The notes under the pieces were generated by a model. It ran no database searches and was not told where the DNA came from. It saw only the letters and a program-made list of their open reading frames with translations. A stretch of DNA of 48,309 bases from Thermoplasmatales archaeon SG8-52-3 (GTDB taxonomy: Archaea > Thermoplasmatota > E2 > DHVEG-1): assembly GCA_001595915.1 (NCBI GenBank), contig LSSG01000084.1:1-48309 (forward strand). Reading direction: 5' to 3'. Below, one piece after another: positions 20,156 to 47,205 of this stretch (its first letter is position 1; every line of letters begins with the position of its first letter). The position numbers were made by a program, and so were the translations under genes.

Positions 20156-21460
20156 GTGATTCTAATGGGTTGGTATATTGATGTTGAATACATAAGAAAA
20201 CAAGCAAAGATGAATAATGAATTTTTTGCTAGTTCACTTCCAATGATTGCTAGCGAAAATGTTTTATCACCACTTTGCAGAGAAATGCTTCTTACTGATT
20301 TTCATGGTAGGTATGCTGAAGGAACTCCAGGTCATAGATATTATGAAGGATGTAAATTTTTTGATAATGTTGAAGTAAAGGCAATGGAGCTTGCAAAAAA
20401 ACTTTTTAACTGTAGTTATGCAGACGTTCGACCCACTGCTGGAACAACTGCAAATATTGGGATTTTAAAGGCTTTAATAAAACCCGGAGAAACAGCAGTA
20501 GTTCTAGATCTTGCAAATGGTGCTCATATATCATTTGGAAAGTGGGGAGGTGCTGGTGTTAGAGGTATAAATCTGGTCTCTTACCCTTTCAATGATGAAT
20601 TAATGAACATTGATGTTGATGCAGCAGTTAAACTTATAAAAAAAGTAAAACCAAAACTTGCATTAAATGGGCGTTCTGTTTTTTTATTTCCTAGTCCAAT
20701 AAAAGAACTTGCAGAAGCTGTTCATGATTTAGGAATATATCTCGTATATGATGCTGCACATGTTTTGGGACTTATTGCTGGTAAACAATTTCAAGATCCT
20801 TTAAAGGAAGGAGCAGATGTAATGAGTGGAAGTACTCATAAAACTCTACCAGGTCCTCAAGGAGGTATGATTGTTTCTAATCATAAAGGGGATACAGATG
20901 AGGATAAATCATTTTTAAGGAAATTGGGATTTGGGATATTTCCAGGTGTTACTTCTTCTTATCATCTCCATCATGTTGCTGCAAAAGCAATAGCTTTTGC
21001 TGAGCATCTTGAATTTGGTGAAGCATATGCAAAACAAACAATTAAAAATGCACAACGTCTAGCACAATCTTTGTATAATTCAGGATTCAAAGTGTTTGGA
21101 GAAAAACTAGGTTTTACCAAATCTCATCAAATACTTGTTGAGATAGGGCCTGGTAAGGGAAAAGTAGCTTCAAAAAAACTTGAGGATGCGGGTATTGTCA
21201 CAAATATGAATACTATACCTGGTGATACCGATCCGTTAAATCCTTCAGGTCTAAGACTTGGCACACCAGAACTTACTAGAATCGGTATGAAAGAAACAGA
21301 TATGGATAGTATTGCAGAATTTTTTAAAAGAGCATTATTAAAAAATGAGAACGTAAATAAAATAAGGTCAGATATAAAAGATTTCAGGAAGGATTTCCAA
21401 GAGTTACATTACTGTTATAACGAAGGATTTAGAGGTTATGATTATCATAAATTAGTTTAG
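20156..21460 (+). CDS. glyA: serine hydroxymethyltransferase
   Basis: MIASENVLSP, GRYAEGTPGHRYYEGC, STHKTLPGPQGG; true start may be ATG 20165. Confidence 0.95.
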   Translation: MILMGWYIDVEYIRKQAKMNNEFFASSLPMIASENVLSPLCREMLLTDFHGRYAEGTPGHRYYEGCKFFDNVEVKAMELAKKLFNCSYADVRPTAGTTANIGILKALIKPGETAVVLDLANGAHISFGKWGGAGVRGINLVSYPFNDELMNIDVDAAVKLIKKVKPKLALNGRSVFLFPSPIKELAEAVHDLGIYLVYDAAHVLGLIAGKQFQDPLKEGADVMSGSTHKTLPGPQGGMIVSNHKGDTDEDKSFLRKLGFGIFPGVTSSYHLHHVAAKAIAFAEHLEFGEAYAKQTIKNAQRLAQSLYNSGFKVFGEKLGFTKSHQILVEIGPGKGKVASKKLEDAGIVTNMNTIPGDTDPLNPSGLRLGTPELTRIGMKETDMDSIAEFFKRALLKNENVNKIRSDIKDFRKDFQELHYCYNEGFRGYDYHKLV

Positions 21461-30570: not shown

Positions 30571-30606
30571 TTAATGATTAAAATATACTGCAATTTTAAT
30601 CATTAA
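30571..30606. terminator. perfect 14-bp inverted repeat at convergent gene ends
   Basis: TTAATGATTAAAAT-atactgca-ATTTTAATCATTAA, overlapping the last codons of radA. Confidence 0.55.
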
Positions 30607-31546
30607 TTCCTTCTTTAGTAATAGTAAAAACAGCTTCACCTTCAGGAAGATGTGGAGAATCAATAAGTCTAGCTATTCTTTTTGGGCCTTTACTTTTTCG
30701 CAAATATACTCTAAAAGTAGCAGTATGACCAACAATATGACCTCCTATAGGTCTTGTTGGATCACCAAAAAAAGCGTCTGGTTTAGCAGCCACTTGATTA
30801 GTTACACAAACAACACCATTATTAAGGTCACTCCATCTTAATAATTCATGCATATGCCTGTTTAATTTTTGTTGCCTATCGGCAAGAGCTCCTCTACCAA
30901 TATATTCAGCACGAAAATGTGCTGTTAGTGAATCAACAATAAGTAATCTACCTGAAACCTCTTTTGAAAGTTCTTTAACCTTGTCTAAAAGGAGCATTTG
31001 ATGACTTGAGTTATAAGCTCTTGCAACATGAATCTTTGAAAGTACCTCATCTGGGTCTAAATCACGAGCCTCAGACATCTGAATAATTCTTTCAGGTCTA
31101 AAAGTATTTTCTGTGTCAATATAAAATGCATGACTCTCTAATCCACCTTGTTCTTTAGGAAGTTGAACCATTACACAAAGTTGATGAGCAATTTGAGTTT
31201 TACCAGAACCAAATTCACCAAATAATTCTATTATTGATTGAGATTCAAAACCTCCCCCCAATAATTCATTTAATGTATTTGATCCACAGGAGATTTTTCC
31301 AATATCCTGACGTTTTTCAAAAAGTTCTTTTCCAGTTTTAAAATCATCTTTATTAACCATTTTTCTAGCTTCTTGTATAATTTTTGAAGCTGTGGTTAAA
31401 CCTAAATCTGCTAAATCAGTTAGTTCTTGAGGGCTAATTACTGCAATATCCATTAGTTCAGTTAATCCGGACTCTCTTAATTTTTCAGCAGTAGCAGGTC
31501 CAACACCAGGTAAATTATCAATTTCATTAGCGCTGTCTTTCTCCAT
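30596..31546 (-). CDS. radA: DNA repair and recombination protein RadA
   Basis: Hh[17 protein letters not shown], Walker [10 protein letters not shown], Walker [13 protein letters not shown]. Confidence 0.97.
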
Positions 31547-31647: not shown

Positions 31648-32217
31648 ATGCCTGATGATTACTACCCGTGGGGTGGAGAATTTATAGTTTGCAACCATAA
31701 AGGATGTGTAGCAGTTGTAATACTTAATTTAGATTATATTCCATCTGAAAATGTAGCAATATATGGCTGGTTAAAAACTGAAAATATTGGAATAGAAAAA
31801 ATTGTTGCAAATGTAATATCAAATCCGAATATTAGATATATTGTAGTTTGTGGTGATGATATAAGAGGTCATCGTTCAGGATTATCACTTATCGCATTAA
31901 ATAAAAATGGAATAGATAGAAATAATAAAATTATTGGAGCTCGAGGAGCTATTCCTTATATAGAAAATTTAAATAATGAAGCAATAAAAAGGTTTCAAAA
32001 TCAAATTGAAATTATTGATTTAATTGGTGTTTCTGATAAAAAAATAATTAAAAGAAAAATAGATGAGTACATAAAAAAATCCCCACCTTCATTTGGAAAA
32101 CCCTATTATGCTATAAAAATTAAACAAAAAAATGAGATTAATTTGGATGATAAAAGAGTGATACATTCAAAAATTAAAATAAATTATTTAGGTAAGATAG
32201 TTAAAAGAGGCGAATAA
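31648..32217 (+). CDS. mtrA: tetrahydromethanopterin S-methyltransferase subunit A-like corrinoid protein (soluble)
   Basis: YPWGGEFIVCNHKGCVAVV, YIVVCGDDIRGHRSGLSL with the candidate cobalt-ligand His (H75); no C-terminal TM. Confidence 0.85.
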   Translation: MPDDYYPWGGEFIVCNHKGCVAVVILNLDYIPSENVAIYGWLKTENIGIEKIVANVISNPNIRYIVVCGDDIRGHRSGLSLIALNKNGIDRNNKIIGARGAIPYIENLNNEAIKRFQNQIEIIDLIGVSDKKIIKRKIDEYIKKSPPSFGKPYYAIKIKQKNEINLDDKRVIHSKIKINYLGKIVKRGE

Positions 32218-33117
32218 ATGTTTTCTTTTACAAAGGACCAAAGAATATTTGAAATTTCAGGAGTTAAAATTGGTGGACAACCAGGAGTTTATCCAACAGT
32301 TCTTATTGGTGGTTTATTTTTTAAAGGTGAACCTGATTTTATTAAAGCAGAAAACCAAATCAAAGATATGCTAGGTTTAACCAAGAAACTAGGAAATCCT
32401 TCAATTCCAGATTTTTTTATTAGAAAGGAACAATACATAGAAAAAATACTGAACTTTATTGATAAAAAAATTCCAAAAAGACAACCTTTTTCAATTGACA
32501 TAATTGAACCTGATTTAAAAATAAAAACTCTTCAATTACTCGATGATAAAGGTTTACTCCAAAGAACAATTTATAATTCAATTCATATTGGAATTACTAA
32601 TGAAGAACGCGATGCATTAAAGAATCATACTCCAAATATGGCAATTATTGTAGCTTTCAATCCAAAGGATAAATCACCGGATGGAAAGATAGAAATTCTA
32701 GAAAATGGGGCAAACTTAATTGATAATGGTCTAATTAATTTAACAAAAAAGTTAGGAGTAAAAAAAATTCTGGTTGATACAGCGGCAATGGCTCCCGGAG
32801 ATTATAGTGGTGCAGCAATTGCAGCAATTCCAGTTATAAAGGAAGAAATGGGACTTCCAACAGGTTGTGCGATACATAATGTTGTTGAAAAATCAAAATG
32901 GCTGGATGATTTTAAATCCATACGTAAACAAGTTGATGCTTCATCAAATATAAATATACCAATGTTTGGAGGAGATTTTACAATATATGGTCCAATTAAT
33001 AATTCAAATACAGTTTTTCCAATGATTGCATGGCAAGATATATTGATTTCAGAGTATGTTGAGAATTATTTTGGGATATCTCCAGATGATTCTCATCCTA
33101 GGAGGAAATTATTTTAA
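32218..33117 (+). CDS. mtrH: tetrahydromethanopterin S-methyltransferase subunit H-like methyltransferase
   Basis: MFSFTKDQRIFEISGVKIGGQPGVYPTVLIGGLFF; VDTAAMAPGDYSGAAIAAIPVIK; TIM-barrel methyltransferase pattern. Confidence 0.9.
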   Translation: MFSFTKDQRIFEISGVKIGGQPGVYPTVLIGGLFFKGEPDFIKAENQIKDMLGLTKKLGNPSIPDFFIRKEQYIEKILNFIDKKIPKRQPFSIDIIEPDLKIKTLQLLDDKGLLQRTIYNSIHIGITNEERDALKNHTPNMAIIVAFNPKDKSPDGKIEILENGANLIDNGLINLTKKLGVKKILVDTAAMAPGDYSGAAIAAIPVIKEEMGLPTGCAIHNVVEKSKWLDDFKSIRKQVDASSNINIPMFGGDFTIYGPINNSNTVFPMIAWQDILISEYVENYFGISPDDSHPRRKLF

Positions 33118-34013
33118 TGAATTTAATTAAAACCTCTGTGATAGGTTCATATCCAATTGATATTGATACAATAAAACATGTAAAAGCATACTTTAAACAA
33201 AAGATTGTGAGTTGGGATAATTATATTAAATCCGCAGTAAAAGATATGTTGAATTCTGGTATTGATATTATTTCTGATGGGCAAACAAGAGATCCATTTG
33301 TAAACATATTTACTAGAAGATTAAAGGGATGCAGAATAAGGGACAGAACGGAAATCATTGATAAAATAGAATATGATGGTCCTATTACTGTAGAAGATCA
33401 AAAATTTATTAAAACTTTTATACCAAAAAATAAGCATTTGATAGGTTTGATAACAGGTCCATACACTCTAACAAATTCCTGTGTTAACCTTTTTTATAAT
33501 AATGATAAAGAACTTTCTTTTGATTTTGCCAAAGCTTTAAATCAAGAGGCAAAAATATTGCAAAAGTATGTGGATTTAATTGGTATTGATGAACCATTTT
33601 TTTCGATGGGAATTCCTGATTATGGGAAAGAATTAATTAATACTATTATAAAAGGCGTTTCTTGTCCTGTTCGACTTCATGTTTGCGGTAATGTTAAAAA
33701 TGTAATACCTGAACTATTGGAAATGCCAGTTGATATTCTTTCACATGAGTTCAAAGCTTTACCAATGCTATTTGATACTTTTAATCAATATGATGTAAAA
33801 AAAGATATTTGTCTTGGTTCTGTTAGATCTGATAAATCAGATATTGAATCTGTTGATGAAATTGTTAATCATATAAAAAAAGGAATTGATATATTTGGAG
33901 ATAGAATTAAACAGATAGCACCCGATTGTGGGCAGAAGATGCTACAAAAAAGTGTAGCCTTCCTAAAATTGAAAAATCTAGTAAAGGCAGGTGAAATCAT
34001 AAATGGTAGATAA
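33117..34013 (+). CDS. MetE C-terminal-type (core) methionine synthase-like
   Basis: 298 aa; SVIGSYP, IISDGQTRDPF, LHVCGNV (HxC) and APDCG zinc-site motifs; no N-terminal folate half. Confidence 0.82.
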   Translation: MNLIKTSVIGSYPIDIDTIKHVKAYFKQKIVSWDNYIKSAVKDMLNSGIDIISDGQTRDPFVNIFTRRLKGCRIRDRTEIIDKIEYDGPITVEDQKFIKTFIPKNKHLIGLITGPYTLTNSCVNLFYNNDKELSFDFAKALNQEAKILQKYVDLIGIDEPFFSMGIPDYGKELINTIIKGVSCPVRLHVCGNVKNVIPELLEMPVDILSHEFKALPMLFDTFNQYDVKKDICLGSVRSDKSDIESVDEIVNHIKKGIDIFGDRIKQIAPDCGQKMLQKSVAFLKLKNLVKAGEIINGR

Positions 34014-34335
34014 AGAAGTTCCACTAATTAAAGCTAAAAAAACACCTCAAAAAGATGTAATACTTGATTCAAATGGTTTTTTTGTAATAGAATTAGATAA
34101 AAATAAAAAAGAAATTCGAGTTGAGTATTATTCAAATGTTTACAAGGAAAATAGAATTGTTACAGGTATTCTTGAAAAGATTTTTACGGGAAATAAAGCA
34201 GACTCTCTATGTGATACAATATTGAAAAATGTACCAAACCTTCTACCATCTCATTATATGTATTTAGGTAGAGAACTTCAAAAGGCACAATATTCACTTG
34301 AGAAAAATACAAAATATGTCCAAGGAGGATGCTAA
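34003..34335 (+). CDS. DUF4346-like small protein
   Basis: DSNGFFVIELDKNKKEIRVEYY ... HYMYLGRELQKAQYSLEKNTKYVQ; overlaps upstream gene. Confidence 0.7.
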   Translation: MVDKEVPLIKAKKTPQKDVILDSNGFFVIELDKNKKEIRVEYYSNVYKENRIVTGILEKIFTGNKADSLCDTILKNVPNLLPSHYMYLGRELQKAQYSLEKNTKYVQGGC

Positions 34336-35102
34336 ACTCTTTCTATAATAGATTTATTTTTTGTATGTATCTCTTTTTTTCCATTTTTCTCTTTGAAATT
34401 AATATTTTTTATGTTTACCTGTTCACCTAATTTGAAATTTTGAATCTCTTTTACCTTTTTGTCCCATAGAGTTATTTGCTCAATACCATTTTTTGTTTCT
34501 ATTTCTACATAGGTTACAAATCCAAACTCGCCATCATCCTTAAAAAAAGCCTTAGTTGGTTCAATTTTAATTATTTTTCCTGTTATTTCGTTTGGATCAG
34601 GTATGTATTCTTCAACTTGCTCTGGTGTATTAGCCGGATTTATCTCGATAAGTCCATACCTTCCAACATTTATCTCAATTCCATTAAATCCATCTTTAAC
34701 ATAGCCATTAATAATTTTTATATTTGTATTATTTTTTATTGATTGTTTTTCAACTAGATCAACATCTTTATCCCATAAAGCTAGACGGCAATTTCCAGTA
34801 CCATCTGATATGTCCAGATTTATCACTCGACCTTGAGTGCCGTTTTTACGATTGAACCTTCTTGATTTATGAATATCAATTACTTTTCCAAAAATCGTGC
34901 ATTCCATTCCATGTTCAAGATCAATAATTTTACAAATATTTTCTTGATTTCTTCCTAATTTGTCAATTATAAAAAGGGCAGCAGTATCATCATCAAAAAG
35001 TTCGTCATTATCTTTTTTTATTTTTGAAATTTCTTCTTCAAACTCATTTTTTGTTTTTAAATCATTTATCTTTTCATATAACTGATCTTTTGTTTTATGC
35101 AT
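34332..35102 (-). CDS. OB-fold nucleic-acid-binding protein (RPA/SSB-like)
   Basis: two OB-like units (CTIFGKVIDIHKSRRF...LDISDGTGNCRLALWD). Confidence 0.85.
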   Translation of the reverse strand: MHKTKDQLYEKINDLKTKNEFEEEISKIKKDNDELFDDDTAALFIIDKLGRNQENICKIIDLEHGMECTIFGKVIDIHKSRRFNRKNGTQGRVINLDISDGTGNCRLALWDKDVDLVEKQSIKNNTNIKIINGYVKDGFNGIEINVGRYGLIEINPANTPEQVEEYIPDPNEITGKIIKIEPTKAFFKDDGEFGFVTYVEIETKNGIEQITLWDKKVKEIQNFKLGEQVNIKNINFKEKNGKKEIHTKNKSIIERV

Positions 35103-35232: not shown

Positions 35233-37602
35233 TTATGCGTATCCACCAAGTTGTAAACTTGGGTCACCAAGTAGTACAAATTGTGTTACTGTTTTTCTGT
35301 CACCAAGATCTCCTAGTCCAATGTTTTGTATATAGCTCTCGATAGCCTGTGAATGGGTTTCTCCAAGTATATCAAATCCATTGCCGTACTGTACAAATAT
35401 TTCAGTTGTTATCCAGTTATCTACTCCGCCAGATGTACACCATTCTCCTAGAATTCCATATCCGTATCCTGTGTTACCCATTGTTGCTATAGCGCCTGTT
35501 TTTGGATATTTTGCAAGAGTCCAAGCCCAACATTCTGGTGTTGGATTACCATATGAATGCATCATATTTTCATTTCTTGTATCAAGCAAGGTTGGAATCA
35601 ATGAAACATTGAACATAGCATTGTGACATCCACCAACGACTACTATTGGGTTTTTGTATGGATTATTTATTTTTCTCATTGGGAAGATTGGTATTCCTAA
35701 ATCCCAAATTTTTAATCCATAAAGATCACCATTTTGTCTGTTACCAGGAATTCCTGGGTAATGGTTTGCCCATACAGCAGGACTTCCATGTCCTGAGAAG
35801 AAAACAAAGCCTTGACCTTCACTCATTGCATTTATTACATCCTTCTGTCCAGTCCATTTACCATTTGAAGACCAAACATATTCTGTATTGATTTGAGGTG
35901 GCATATAGTATGGACCTCCAGCTCTTCCATTTAAGAGTTGGTTACCTGTTGTCCATTCTCCTTCGTAGTACATCTCTACACCATTTCTCCATTGATCAAA
36001 TACAGTTGTACCACCGCTATTGACTATCCATACATGTATATCTGTTGTGTAACCGTATGGTCGTGGGTCATAACACTTTCCATTTATTGTAAGGACTTTA
36101 TTAACGTATCTTATATTTCCCCAGCTAGAAAAGCTGTTACAGTATGCTTCTCTATCAGTTGGTACATAGGTGTAATCCTGTGCACCAAGAACGTCACCAG
36201 GTGAAATTGATACAATCTCTGCAACAGGTTCAAAAGGATATTCCAATCCTGTTGTGAGATGATCATCATGATTGAAGGTGATTTTTGTTGCTTGAGTTTT
36301 TGCTACTGTTATTGGTGTCTCATCTATTGGCCCATAGGTACCATCGTTGTTTCTACTTTGTGCCTTAATTGTATATTCTCCATCTGGTATGGTATTTATA
36401 TTCCACAAGAAGTTAAGTGCAGGTTGATCTAAGAATCCATCACCAGAAACTGATAGCATCTCTTCAAACCAAGAGGGATCACAAATTCCTGTTTCGTATT
36501 CAATAATCTTTCCAACAATGTCCTTTACTTCTTTAGATGATCTACATGGTAGTCTACCTACAGCAACATCAGGATGACAGTCCAAAGGATCTGCATTTTC
36601 AGCATATACATGATTTCCATTGAAATCCCAATCCTCGAAATCTCCACCGCCTTTATAGATATCAGCATAATAAAGATCTGATAGAAATCCTGGTTCATCA
36701 TTATTGTATGCGATATTTGTGTATCTTACTGGTACATACCAGTCCTTTACACCATAATTTTTATGTTCTCTTGGTTCTGCTATCCATTTGCTGTTTAAAC
36801 CACCAACTATTAATACATATTTTGTACCCCAAGTTTCTAATGCATCTTTTATGAATTTCTTAATTTGCTCAGGTTTATCATATCCAGTATAGTCATCATA
36901 TATATCTTCAGTTGTAACTAATGTTGTTGTCATTCCTTTTGATTCTTTATGGTCTACTAAACCTTGAAGAACTCCTGAAAATTTATTTGGTGCGATGATT
37001 ACTAAATCATAAGTTGAATCAATTGGGAATGGATTTGAATTTGGCACTTCATAATCGATTGTGAGTTCAATTGATTTTGCATAACTGATTTCATCCGATG
37101 CTCCAAGGTATCTTATTGGATAAGTTGTGATTGTCAAAAAGGTTTTGTGTTCCATGTTTTTATCAAGTCCAACACCTACAGAATAACTATACCAATCATT
37201 TGGGAATAGCACTTCAGAATTGTAGACTGTTTCGTCTTTTTCAGTTTTAGTTGGTAAACTAACCAAATCTAGTCTAATTCTCTGTGGACCTGGCATTATA
37301 TCTTTTGGTAAAACCATTGTTTCAATTTCATTAACCTCACAATAAACATTACTTACTGTTGCACCAAATGGTAGTACTAAGGTTTCAGTGTATATTGGAA
37401 GTATAGGTTGCCCCTCACGTAAAAGTCTTGAATTAGTACCTTCAACTTCTAATTTAACAGTTTCTTCAACTTCAATAATTGTTGGCTCAAAAAAACTTTT
37501 ACTTACTATCTGTTGATATTCACCAGCCTCTTGACCTACAGTTACTATTGTGATACTGCTTAGTAACAGTAGGCTTACTATGAAATATGGTATGCTTTTC
37601 AT
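35233..37602 (-). CDS. secreted gingipain-like C25 peptidase with propeptide
   Basis: signal peptide, FFSGHGSPAVW (His) and VVVGGCHNAMF (Cys) catalytic motifs. Confidence 0.9.
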   Translation of the reverse strand: MKSIPYFIVSLLLLSSITIVTVGQEAGEYQQIVSKSFFEPTIIEVEETVKLEVEGTNSRLLREGQPILPIYTETLVLPFGATVSNVYCEVNEIETMVLPKDIMPGPQRIRLDLVSLPTKTEKDETVYNSEVLFPNDWYSYSVGVGLDKNMEHKTFLTITTYPIRYLGASDEISYAKSIELTIDYEVPNSNPFPIDSTYDLVIIAPNKFSGVLQGLVDHKESKGMTTTLVTTEDIYDDYTGYDKPEQIKKFIKDALETWGTKYVLIVGGLNSKWIAEPREHKNYGVKDWYVPVRYTNIAYNNDEPGFLSDLYYADIYKGGGDFEDWDFNGNHVYAENADPLDCHPDVAVGRLPCRSSKEVKDIVGKIIEYETGICDPSWFEEMLSVSGDGFLDQPALNFLWNINTIPDGEYTIKAQSRNNDGTYGPIDETPITVAKTQATKITFNHDDHLTTGLEYPFEPVAEIVSISPGDVLGAQDYTYVPTDREAYCNSFSSWGNIRYVNKVLTINGKCYDPRPYGYTTDIHVWIVNSGGTTVFDQWRNGVEMYYEGEWTTGNQLLNGRAGGPYYMPPQINTEYVWSSNGKWTGQKDVINAMSEGQGFVFFSGHGSPAVWANHYPGIPGNRQNGDLYGLKIWDLGIPIFPMRKINNPYKNPIVVVGGCHNAMFNVSLIPTLLDTRNENMMHSYGNPTPECWAWTLAKYPKTGAIATMGNTGYGYGILGEWCTSGGVDNWITTEIFVQYGNGFDILGETHSQAIESYIQNIGLGDLGDRKTVTQFVLLGDPSLQLGGYA

Positions 37603-43643: not shown

Positions 43644-44921
43644 GTGATTTTAATTAAAAAGATTCAAATATTTTCAATAATTGTTATTTGTTTGATAGTT
43701 ACTTCAGGTATTATTTATACTTTATATTCTTTAAATGAAAACTCAAATATTGAAACTTCAAAATTAATACCATTAGCAGATGATACTAATGCAACAGCAG
43801 AAAGTGTTAGTAAGCTTGCTAATTTACTAAATGATTTTTCATTTGATTTTTTCAGAAAAATTGCTAATGTTGAAGAAGGTAATGTTTTCTTTTCACCTTA
43901 TAGTATTTTTACTGCTCTTTCAATGGCTTATGAGGGGGCTAGAGAAAATACGGCAAATGAAATGGAAAATGTTCTAAAAATCCTACAGAATAATTCTCAA
44001 ACACTTGGTTCTTTTGGTAGGATTTATAATTTACTAAATCAAAATCAAGAAGGATATAAAATTAGTACTGCAAATGCGTTTTGGACTCATGAGGATTATG
44101 AATTCTTAAAAAAATATTTGGATTTACTCAAAAATTTCTATATGGCTGAAGCAAATGAACTTGATTTTTCAGATAATATTGAAGCTGCTGAGATAATAAA
44201 CAGCTGGATTGAAGAGCAAACAAATGATAAAATAAAGGATATGATACAACCAGATATGCTTTCAGATTTAACTAAACTAGTCTTAACAAATGCTATATAT
44301 TTCAAAGGACAATGGGACAGTCCCTTTAATCCTAAATTAACTTATGAAACTGATTTTGAACTAACGACCGGTCAGACTGTTAAAGTAAACATGATGAGTG
44401 ACCCAAAAAATTCAGTTTTTAATTATTCAGAAACAGAATTCTTGCAGATTCTTGAAATGGATTATTATGGAAATGATTTGTCAATGTTAGTTATTCTTCC
44501 AAAAGAAAATAACATTACATATGCCGAGTCTAAAATGAATTTTGAAAACCTTTCAAAATGGAAGAATAATTTATATGAAAAAGATATTAATGTTGAAATT
44601 CCAAAATTTAAATTTGAAAAAAAATATTCACTTGATAATATCCTCCAAGATATGGGTATTGTTGATGCATTCTTGCCCGGTGTGGCTGATTTTTCTGGTA
44701 TGGATGGAACAAAGAATCTTTTTATAAGTAGGGCACTTCATCAGGCTTTTGTTGAGGTAAACGAGGAAGGAACTGAAGCCGCTGCTGCAACAACTATTAT
44801 TATGGAACTTACTGCTGTACCAGATAGTTTTATAGCCAATCATCCATTTATTTTTTTAATACAACACAAAGAAACTGGTGCAATTCTTTTTATGGGAAGA
44901 GTTAACGATCCTTCTTTATAA
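43644..44921 (+). CDS. serpin (serine protease inhibitor), exported
   Basis: N-terminal TM/signal; NVFFSPYSIFTALSMAYEGA; hinge VNEEGTEAAAATTIIM; HPFIFLIQHKETGAILFMGRV; GTG start. Confidence 0.93.
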   Translation: MILIKKIQIFSIIVICLIVTSGIIYTLYSLNENSNIETSKLIPLADDTNATAESVSKLANLLNDFSFDFFRKIANVEEGNVFFSPYSIFTALSMAYEGARENTANEMENVLKILQNNSQTLGSFGRIYNLLNQNQEGYKISTANAFWTHEDYEFLKKYLDLLKNFYMAEANELDFSDNIEAAEIINSWIEEQTNDKIKDMIQPDMLSDLTKLVLTNAIYFKGQWDSPFNPKLTYETDFELTTGQTVKVNMMSDPKNSVFNYSETEFLQILEMDYYGNDLSMLVILPKENNITYAESKMNFENLSKWKNNLYEKDINVEIPKFKFEKKYSLDNILQDMGIVDAFLPGVADFSGMDGTKNLFISRALHQAFVEVNEEGTEAAAATTIIMELTAVPDSFIANHPFIFLIQHKETGAILFMGRVNDPSL

Positions 44922-45771: not shown

Positions 45772-47205
45772 ATGTTTGAAAATATTCACAAAAAAATTAT
45801 TGCTTTTAGTATTGTAATTATCTTTATTTTTTTAACAATCTCACCAATTATTGATGCAAAAGTTTCAAACAATAAAATAAGTGTTATAGTGTATGGAAAT
45901 GATGATAATGATAATTCAGATTTTGACTTACTTATTATTTGTCCAAAAAAATTTTCATTTGCAATGCAGCCACTTGCTAGACATAAAGAAAAGTATAATA
46001 TTTTAACAAAAATTGTTACGTTAAAAAGTATATATTCTCAACATCCTGAAGGAAGAGATGATGCTGAGAAGATTAAATTATTTATTAAAGATGCTTATGA
46101 CAATTCAAATATCTCCTATGTACTTTTAGTGGGGGGTAAAAAGACTCAATTTAATTCTTGGAATTGCCCAGTTAGATATGTTCAAATGTCAGACTCTGGG
46201 TCTTGGGAATCAGAAATTCTAAGTGATCTATATTTTGCTGATTTATATGATTCTGAGGGTAAATTTTCTAGTTGGGACTCTGATGGTGATGGTCATTATG
46301 GTGAATGGGATCAAGGAGAGCAACCAGAAGATAAATATTTAGACCTATATCCAGAAGTTGCAATAGGTAGACTACCTTGTAGAAACAGACTTGAAGTAAG
46401 AATTATGATTAGAAAGATAATAAAATATGAAAAATCAACATACGGAAAATCATGGTTCTGGGATATTGTAGCAATTGCTGGGGATACATATCCTGAATAT
46501 CAAAATGAAAAATGGGTTGGAAATGAAGGAGAATATTATGCAGATTTAGTACTAGAAAACATGTCTGATTTTAATAATGTTACTTATTATACATCAGACG
46601 GGACACTAAAGGGGTGGTATGACATTTACAAAGCAATAAACAAAGGTTGTGGTTTTTTGTATTTCAATGGTCATGCAAGTCCAAGGACTTGGTCTACACA
46701 TTTTCCGAATAGTAAAAATTGGACAAAGGCATTTTCTGTAAACCATATCCGTTTATTACATAATAGAAATAAACTACCAATCTGTGTAGTTGGAGGTTGT
46801 CATACTAATCAGTTTGATGTTTCCATTTTTAAGGTTTTTAATGGAACTCAAAGATGGCGAGGTGAAGCAACCCCTGAATGTTGGAGCTGGCTTTTAACAA
46901 GAAAGTTTGGAGGTGGTTCTATTGCTACTATTGGATGTACTGCTCTTGGATTTACAAAAGAGGATAAAGAGTCTTTTGATGGTGGTGCATGTATTCTTGA
47001 GGTTCAATTCTTCAAGCAGTATGGACAGGATAATGTGGATATAATTGGTGATGCATGGGCTAATGCTGTAAGTTGGTATATTGACACATATCCGGTTGAT
47101 TGGGATAATCCACATCCAAATGATTCATGGATTGATGTTCAAATCGTCCAGACCTGGAATCTATTTGGTGATCCCTCTTTAAAAATGGGTGGATACTCTA
47201 ATTAA
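45772..47205 (+). CDS. secreted gingipain-like C25 peptidase (short form)
   Basis: signal peptide; FLYFNGHASPRTW and VVGGCHTNQF; same LFGDPSLxxGGY ending as 35233..37602. Confidence 0.9.
   Translation: MFENIHKKIIAFSIVIIFIFLTISPIIDAKVSNNKISVIVYGNDDNDNSDFDLLIICPKKFSFAMQPLARHKEKYNILTKIVTLKSIYSQHPEGRDDAEKIKLFIKDAYDNSNISYVLLVGGKKTQFNSWNCPVRYVQMSDSGSWESEILSDLYFADLYDSEGKFSSWDSDGDGHYGEWDQGEQPEDKYLDLYPEVAIGRLPCRNRLEVRIMIRKIIKYEKSTYGKSWFWDIVAIAGDTYPEYQNEKWVGNEGEYYADLVLENMSDFNNVTYYTSDGTLKGWYDIYKAINKGCGFLYFNGHASPRTWSTHFPNSKNWTKAFSVNHIRLLHNRNKLPICVVGGCHTNQFDVSIFKVFNGTQRWRGEATPECWSWLLTRKFGGGSIATIGCTALGFTKEDKESFDGGACILEVQFFKQYGQDNVDIIGDAWANAVSWYIDTYPVDWDNPHPNDSWIDVQIVQTWNLFGDPSLKMGGYSN

Follow-up and report, generated by a model that had tools for sequence, protein, structure and literature searches.

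The window, meaning the whole 48,309-nucleotide stretch of Thermoplasmatales archaeon SG8-52-3 DNA that was analysed, contains a run of four genes encoding a soluble MtrA-like corrinoid protein, an MtrH-like methyltransferase, a MesA-like core methionine synthase and a DUF4346 protein, with spacings of 0, −1 and −11 bases between successive genes (Table 1). Because the flanking genes both lie on the − strand, these four constitute the entire + strand run. The original prediction had described four abutting or overlapping + strand genes, the second being mtrH and the fourth coding for a 110-aa DUF4346-like protein; all four open reading frames were found in place, and Pfam searches returned the expected family for each. 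Elsewhere in the window, protease and protease-inhibitor genes (C25 peptidases and a serpin) adjoin.

Table 1. Genes of the operon and other features of the window
Feature	Position	Strand	Remarks
mtrA-like soluble corrinoid protein	31648-32217	+	189 aa; Pfam PF04208, E=3e-53
mtrH-like methyl-tetrahydropterin:corrinoid-protein methyltransferase	32218-33117	+	299 aa; Pfam PF02007, E=1e-62
mesA-like core methionine synthase	33117-34013	+	298 aa; Meth_synt_2 PF01717, E=3e-32, residues 5-292
DUF4346 protein (predicted docking or accessory subunit)	34003-34335	+	110 aa; Pfam PF14251, E=8e-22
radA	30596-31546	−	flanks the four-gene run
Replication-protein-A-like gene	34332-35102	−	flanks the four-gene run
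Serine hydroxymethyltransferase (SHMT)	20156-21460		precedes the operon by ~10 kb
Pair of C25 peptidase genes (gingipain type) and a nearby serpin gene	35233-37602, 43644-44921, 45772-47205		

Conservation of the gene order

Of 44 relatives in the same family, 37 carry the synthase, and another six Thermoplasmatota genomes gave strong matches. In contigs of sufficient length, the four-gene order was seen again. Named genomes were also scanned, yielding 51 loci: one from Methanococci and 50 of the Thermoplasmatota type. The run mtrA-mtrH-mesA-DUF4346 is complete in 42 of the 50 (a few being cut inside a gene by a contig end), which bears out the expectation of a conserved order. Contig ends, one insertion or a split into two operons explain the other eight. 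Either mtrA or DUF4346 is lost to a contig end at L052, L068, L070, L073 and L100; at L057, an integrase-bearing insert of ~5.6 kb separates mtrA from mtrH; and at L089 and L098 mesA stands apart, with metF-mtrA-mtrH elsewhere in the same genomes. DUF4346 accompanies the separate mesA at L089, and the L098 stretch stops before that point. The two-operon arrangement, metF-mtrA-mtrH and mesA-DUF4346, is seen in two halophile genomes. The insert (L127:1936-7556, on the same contig as L057, G034:C164) encodes a tyrosine integrase (PF00589) and probably represents an integrated archaeal plasmid or virus. With regard to individual assemblies, mtrA adjoins radA on an N-gapped scaffold in G001, a contig ends inside mtrH in G012, and mtrA and mesA lie on different contigs in G088, the sole genome that breaks the pattern without an explanation.

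The flanking genes vary between lineages, and the four genes therefore persist as a unit; with this order found in dozens of genomes, chance is excluded. Carriers include M9B1D of Ca. Thermoprofundales (MBG-D, DHVEG-1; L063), which puts the window in or close to that group, and the full operon is also present in a record named Methanomassiliicoccales archaeon UBA147 (L087:4476-7225). MtrA was present once per genome in 23 of 23 genomes with the synthase, but in just 1 of the 75 relatives that gave no strong synthase match; that lone exception is a contig ending inside mtrH (Fisher P 1.6e-21, a value that ignores kinship among genomes). The operon is judged to be real, conserved and functionally coherent.

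Active sites, folds and families of the four proteins

The synthase comprises the catalytic half of MetE only, with no N-terminal folate domain. Using the MetE positions given by Price et al. (PMC7857596), its zinc ligands were assigned as H188, C190, E211 and C271, and its homocysteine-site residues as S11, Q56 and D158. The HxC and DCG motifs that had been noted earlier in this 298-aa protein both align with MetE, together with the fourth ligand, E211; a failure of the zinc-site residues to align, named beforehand as an argument against the assignment, was not observed. All seven residues are invariant in 32 of 32 sampled cluster proteins and in 16 of 16 methanogen MesA proteins, among them the Gln that replaces Glu484 of MetE in MesA and MesC (PMC7857596). 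The predicted structure (pLDDT 95.7) has MetE, specifically its catalytic half, as its best match (TM 0.89).

Family placement was examined with the NCBIfam MesA model, NF002119 (PRK00957), which scored 251 bits for the window protein, 227, 250, 258 and 262 bits for relatives and 470 bits for Methanococci MesA, so that the cluster proteins straddle the curated cut-off of 258 bits. In a tree of moderate support, with a long outgroup, the cluster synthases come out as one group and Methanococci MesA as its sister. The cluster synthase is filed as a MesA-like sister clade and not as MesA proper. The published range of MesA, methanogens only, is not matched, as mcrA was detected in 0 of 23 genomes carrying the synthase gene. 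More distant MesA-like proteins (25-29% identity) were found in G094 (L039:5316-6206) and G083 (L040:5857-6855). Neither genome has MtrA, showing that a MesA-like protein need not come with an MtrA carrier; one of the two proteins has Gly in the column of the Glu zinc ligand.

MtrA had been described as soluble, with a His in RGHRSG and lacking a C-terminal transmembrane helix, and each of these points held. The RGHRSG stretch of this PF04208 protein aligns with a His-containing stretch of the solved methanogen MtrA (PDB 5laa), and a conserved C-terminal extension occupies the place where the membrane anchor would be. No transmembrane helix was found there by Kyte-Doolittle hydropathy, the largest 19-residue mean across residues 141-189 being −0.16. 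MtrH matches both subunit H of Mtr (9qtp) and a methylcorrinoid:tetrahydrofolate methyltransferase (6sj8). Among the four open reading frames of the operon, Pfam searches gave no further mtr genes; the marks of the Mtr complex, a C-terminal membrane anchor on MtrA and subunits MtrB-G, are absent from it.

Soluble mtrAH genes with a C-terminally extended MtrA, much like the present proteins, were reported by Speth and Orphan in a Methanomassiliicoccales genome with a tetrahydrofolate (THF) pathway, and coenzyme M (CoM) was proposed as the acceptor (PMC6147122). Read in this way, MtrAH would be a methyl-THF:CoM methyltransferase serving methyl-CoM metabolism. We consider this very unlikely for the present operon: the genomes lack detectable mcrA as noted above, and the acceptor-side enzyme encoded here is MetE-like, with homocysteine-site residues. 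It is not MtaA-like, since MtaA-type models score below 30 bits on it and, in the fold search, MetE came out well ahead of uroporphyrinogen decarboxylase folds. As UBA147 carries the full operon, the Methanomassiliicoccales mtrAH case deserves a second look.

For the DUF4346 protein, a confident model (pLDDT 91.9) gave no significant match in a fold search of the PDB and of viral models, nor did its sequence match any PDB entry. Kinship with MtrA was considered and dropped after profile comparison gave nothing. The NCBIfam model for long MtrA, NF002128, is matched by MtrA at positions 113-272 and by DUF4346 at 278-368, i.e. both in one chain; in TIGR00284, a model for a dihydropteroate-synthase-like protein, DUF4346 lies at the C-terminal end. 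DUF4346 stays with mesA where mtrAH has moved elsewhere, and NF002128 joins it to MtrA; both observations fit its most likely predicted role, that of docking MtrA and MesA for the hand-over of the methyl group.

Rival enzymes and the source of the methyl group

Presence and absence across genomes rest on family searches, and absences are soft because the metagenome-assembled genomes (MAGs) are incomplete, the SG8-52-3 MAG being ~79% complete. In this MAG, MtrH, MtrA and PF01717 are each represented by a single gene, the last being the operon synthase. A full MetE or MetH elsewhere was sought as the methionine synthase and rejected, there being neither a second PF01717 gene nor a PF02574 (MetH/BHMT-type) gene. 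Nor was mcrA detected in it, and the original prediction that conventional MetE, MetH and mcr would be lacking elsewhere therefore stands for the assembled genome. More widely, 21 of the 23 genomes with the synthase lack PF02574, which occurs in the other 2.

In methylotrophs, pairs of a corrinoid protein and MtrH run catabolically, and methyl groups can pass between corrinoid and pterin in either direction. The operon could by analogy work in the catabolic direction, as was also weighed for a corrinoid protein-MtrH pair in PMC7886697, with a methyl group passing from a methylated substrate via MesA or MtrA to the pterin, followed by oxidation through MetF. The operon, however, contains no substrate methyltransferase, MetE-type chemistry goes toward methionine, and the operon synthase is the only candidate of either synthase family in its own genome, which together make this reading highly improbable.

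With respect to the methyl donor, the Wood-Ljungdahl corrinoid Fe-S protein, predicted to serve MesB and MesC, was considered and rejected, CdhD being essentially absent (1 of 23 genomes, a weak match). A survey of eight MAGs of this archaeal order found no CODH/ACS except for one CdhA (PMC6461988).

The methyl carrier was originally predicted to be methyl-tetrahydromethanopterin (methyl-H4MPT), with the same operon and the same product. MtrA and MtrH are indeed H4MPT enzymes in methanogens, and one of the eight surveyed MAGs has genes for Fmd, Ftr and Mch; H4folate methyl-branch genes, in comparison, are present in all eight and are the only ones in the other seven (PMC6461988). MetF was detected in 25 of 25 genomes tested and FolD in 26 of 27, whereas Mer, the H4MPT enzyme searched for, was found in 0 of 23, and THF-using relatives of MtrH are known (6sj8). 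The position of metF argues in the same direction: it lies directly upstream of mtrA at L083, L090, L094 and L096 and at the split loci L124/L125, and L091 has metV-metF-mtrA-mtrH-mesA-DUF4346 in one run. At L072:4236-4511, a 91-aa metF remnant, its ends joined and its middle deleted, directly precedes mtrA. In SG8-52-3 itself, metF adjoins a gene for a MetV-type protein (PF12225; L120) away from the operon. Methyl-H4MPT as donor is therefore unlikely, and that part of the original prediction is replaced: given the route, we are rather confident that the pterin is probably THF.

Proposed route and relation to known systems

Taking these results together, the operon is judged, with good though not full confidence, to encode a functional counterpart of MetH, namely a corrinoid-dependent methionine synthase whose tasks are divided among separate proteins and which is fed by methyl-THF. 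C1 units from serine or formate would enter as methylene-THF, for which the SHMT of the window is a likely source, and MetF (with MetV in SG8-52-3) would reduce this to methyl-THF. Based on family chemistry, MtrH would then transfer the methyl group to Co(I) of the corrinoid on soluble MtrA, from which MesA, with zinc-activated homocysteine, would take it to form methionine, DUF4346 docking MtrA and MesA for the hand-over. The original prediction, in which MtrA is loaded by MtrH and homocysteine is methylated by a core MetE outside methanogenesis, is thus supported by the conserved order, the aligned zinc residues and, in the assembled genome, the lack of mcrA and of any other PF01717 or PF02574 synthase. 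A broader statement, to which we give about even chances, is that MesA, soluble MtrA, MtrH and DUF4346 make up a single dedicated, folate-linked holoenzyme across Thermoplasmatota, previously undescribed, in which DUF4346 is a new and essential subunit, and that soluble MtrAH in the phylum today serves mainly in this enzyme.

Transfer from MtrA to MesA was predicted by Price et al. in 2021 from distribution evidence only, for a MesA found solely in methanogens (PMC7857596). The cluster synthase resembles methanogen MesA in having the MetE catalytic half only, with the same zinc and homocysteine residues including the Gln, and it is 34-40% identical to the Methanococci proteins of its sister clade. 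In contrast to methanogen MesA, it occurs in genomes without mcrA, and its gene lies together with mtrA, mtrH and DUF4346, none of which was found within 1.5 kb of Methanococci mesA.

The overall reaction and the proposed order of transfer, from methyl-pterin to corrinoid to zinc-bound homocysteine, are those of MetH, to whose pterin domain MtrH is related (PMC4632066). Unlike MetH, the operon encodes separate proteins with MtrA as the corrinoid carrier, its homocysteine domain is MetE-like and not of the PF02574 type, and no AdoMet activation domain was seen in the operon. With the MtrABCDEFGH complex it shares homologues of MtrA and MtrH, and the same methyl-loading step is expected; it differs in its MtrA, which is soluble and diverges at the C terminus, in having no subunits B-G in the operon, and in its predicted acceptor, homocysteine instead of CoM.

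The role of soluble MtrA and MtrH outside methanogens has been called unclear (PMC9635834), and it has been described as uncertain where the methyl group goes (PMC11291895). By linking mtrAH to a methionine synthase, the operon offers a predicted role for these soluble 'orphan' proteins outside methanogenesis, as well as a destination for the methyl branch of H4folate reported from MBG-D archaea that lack CODH/ACS (PMC6461988). It also brings DUF4346 into a pathway and provides a small soluble system for testing MtrA-to-MesA transfer. A literature search, with subscription papers mostly outside its coverage, found no description of the four-gene operon. A related arrangement is that of Ca. Methanomethylicus mesodigestum, in which a corrinoid protein-mtrH-metE cluster was described and an anabolic role mooted (Protze et al., PMC7886697). 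There too an MtrH gene lies beside genes for a corrinoid protein and a MetE homologue, but the corrinoid protein belongs to the methylamine methyltransferase type instead of being an MtrA, and the organism is a putative methanogen.
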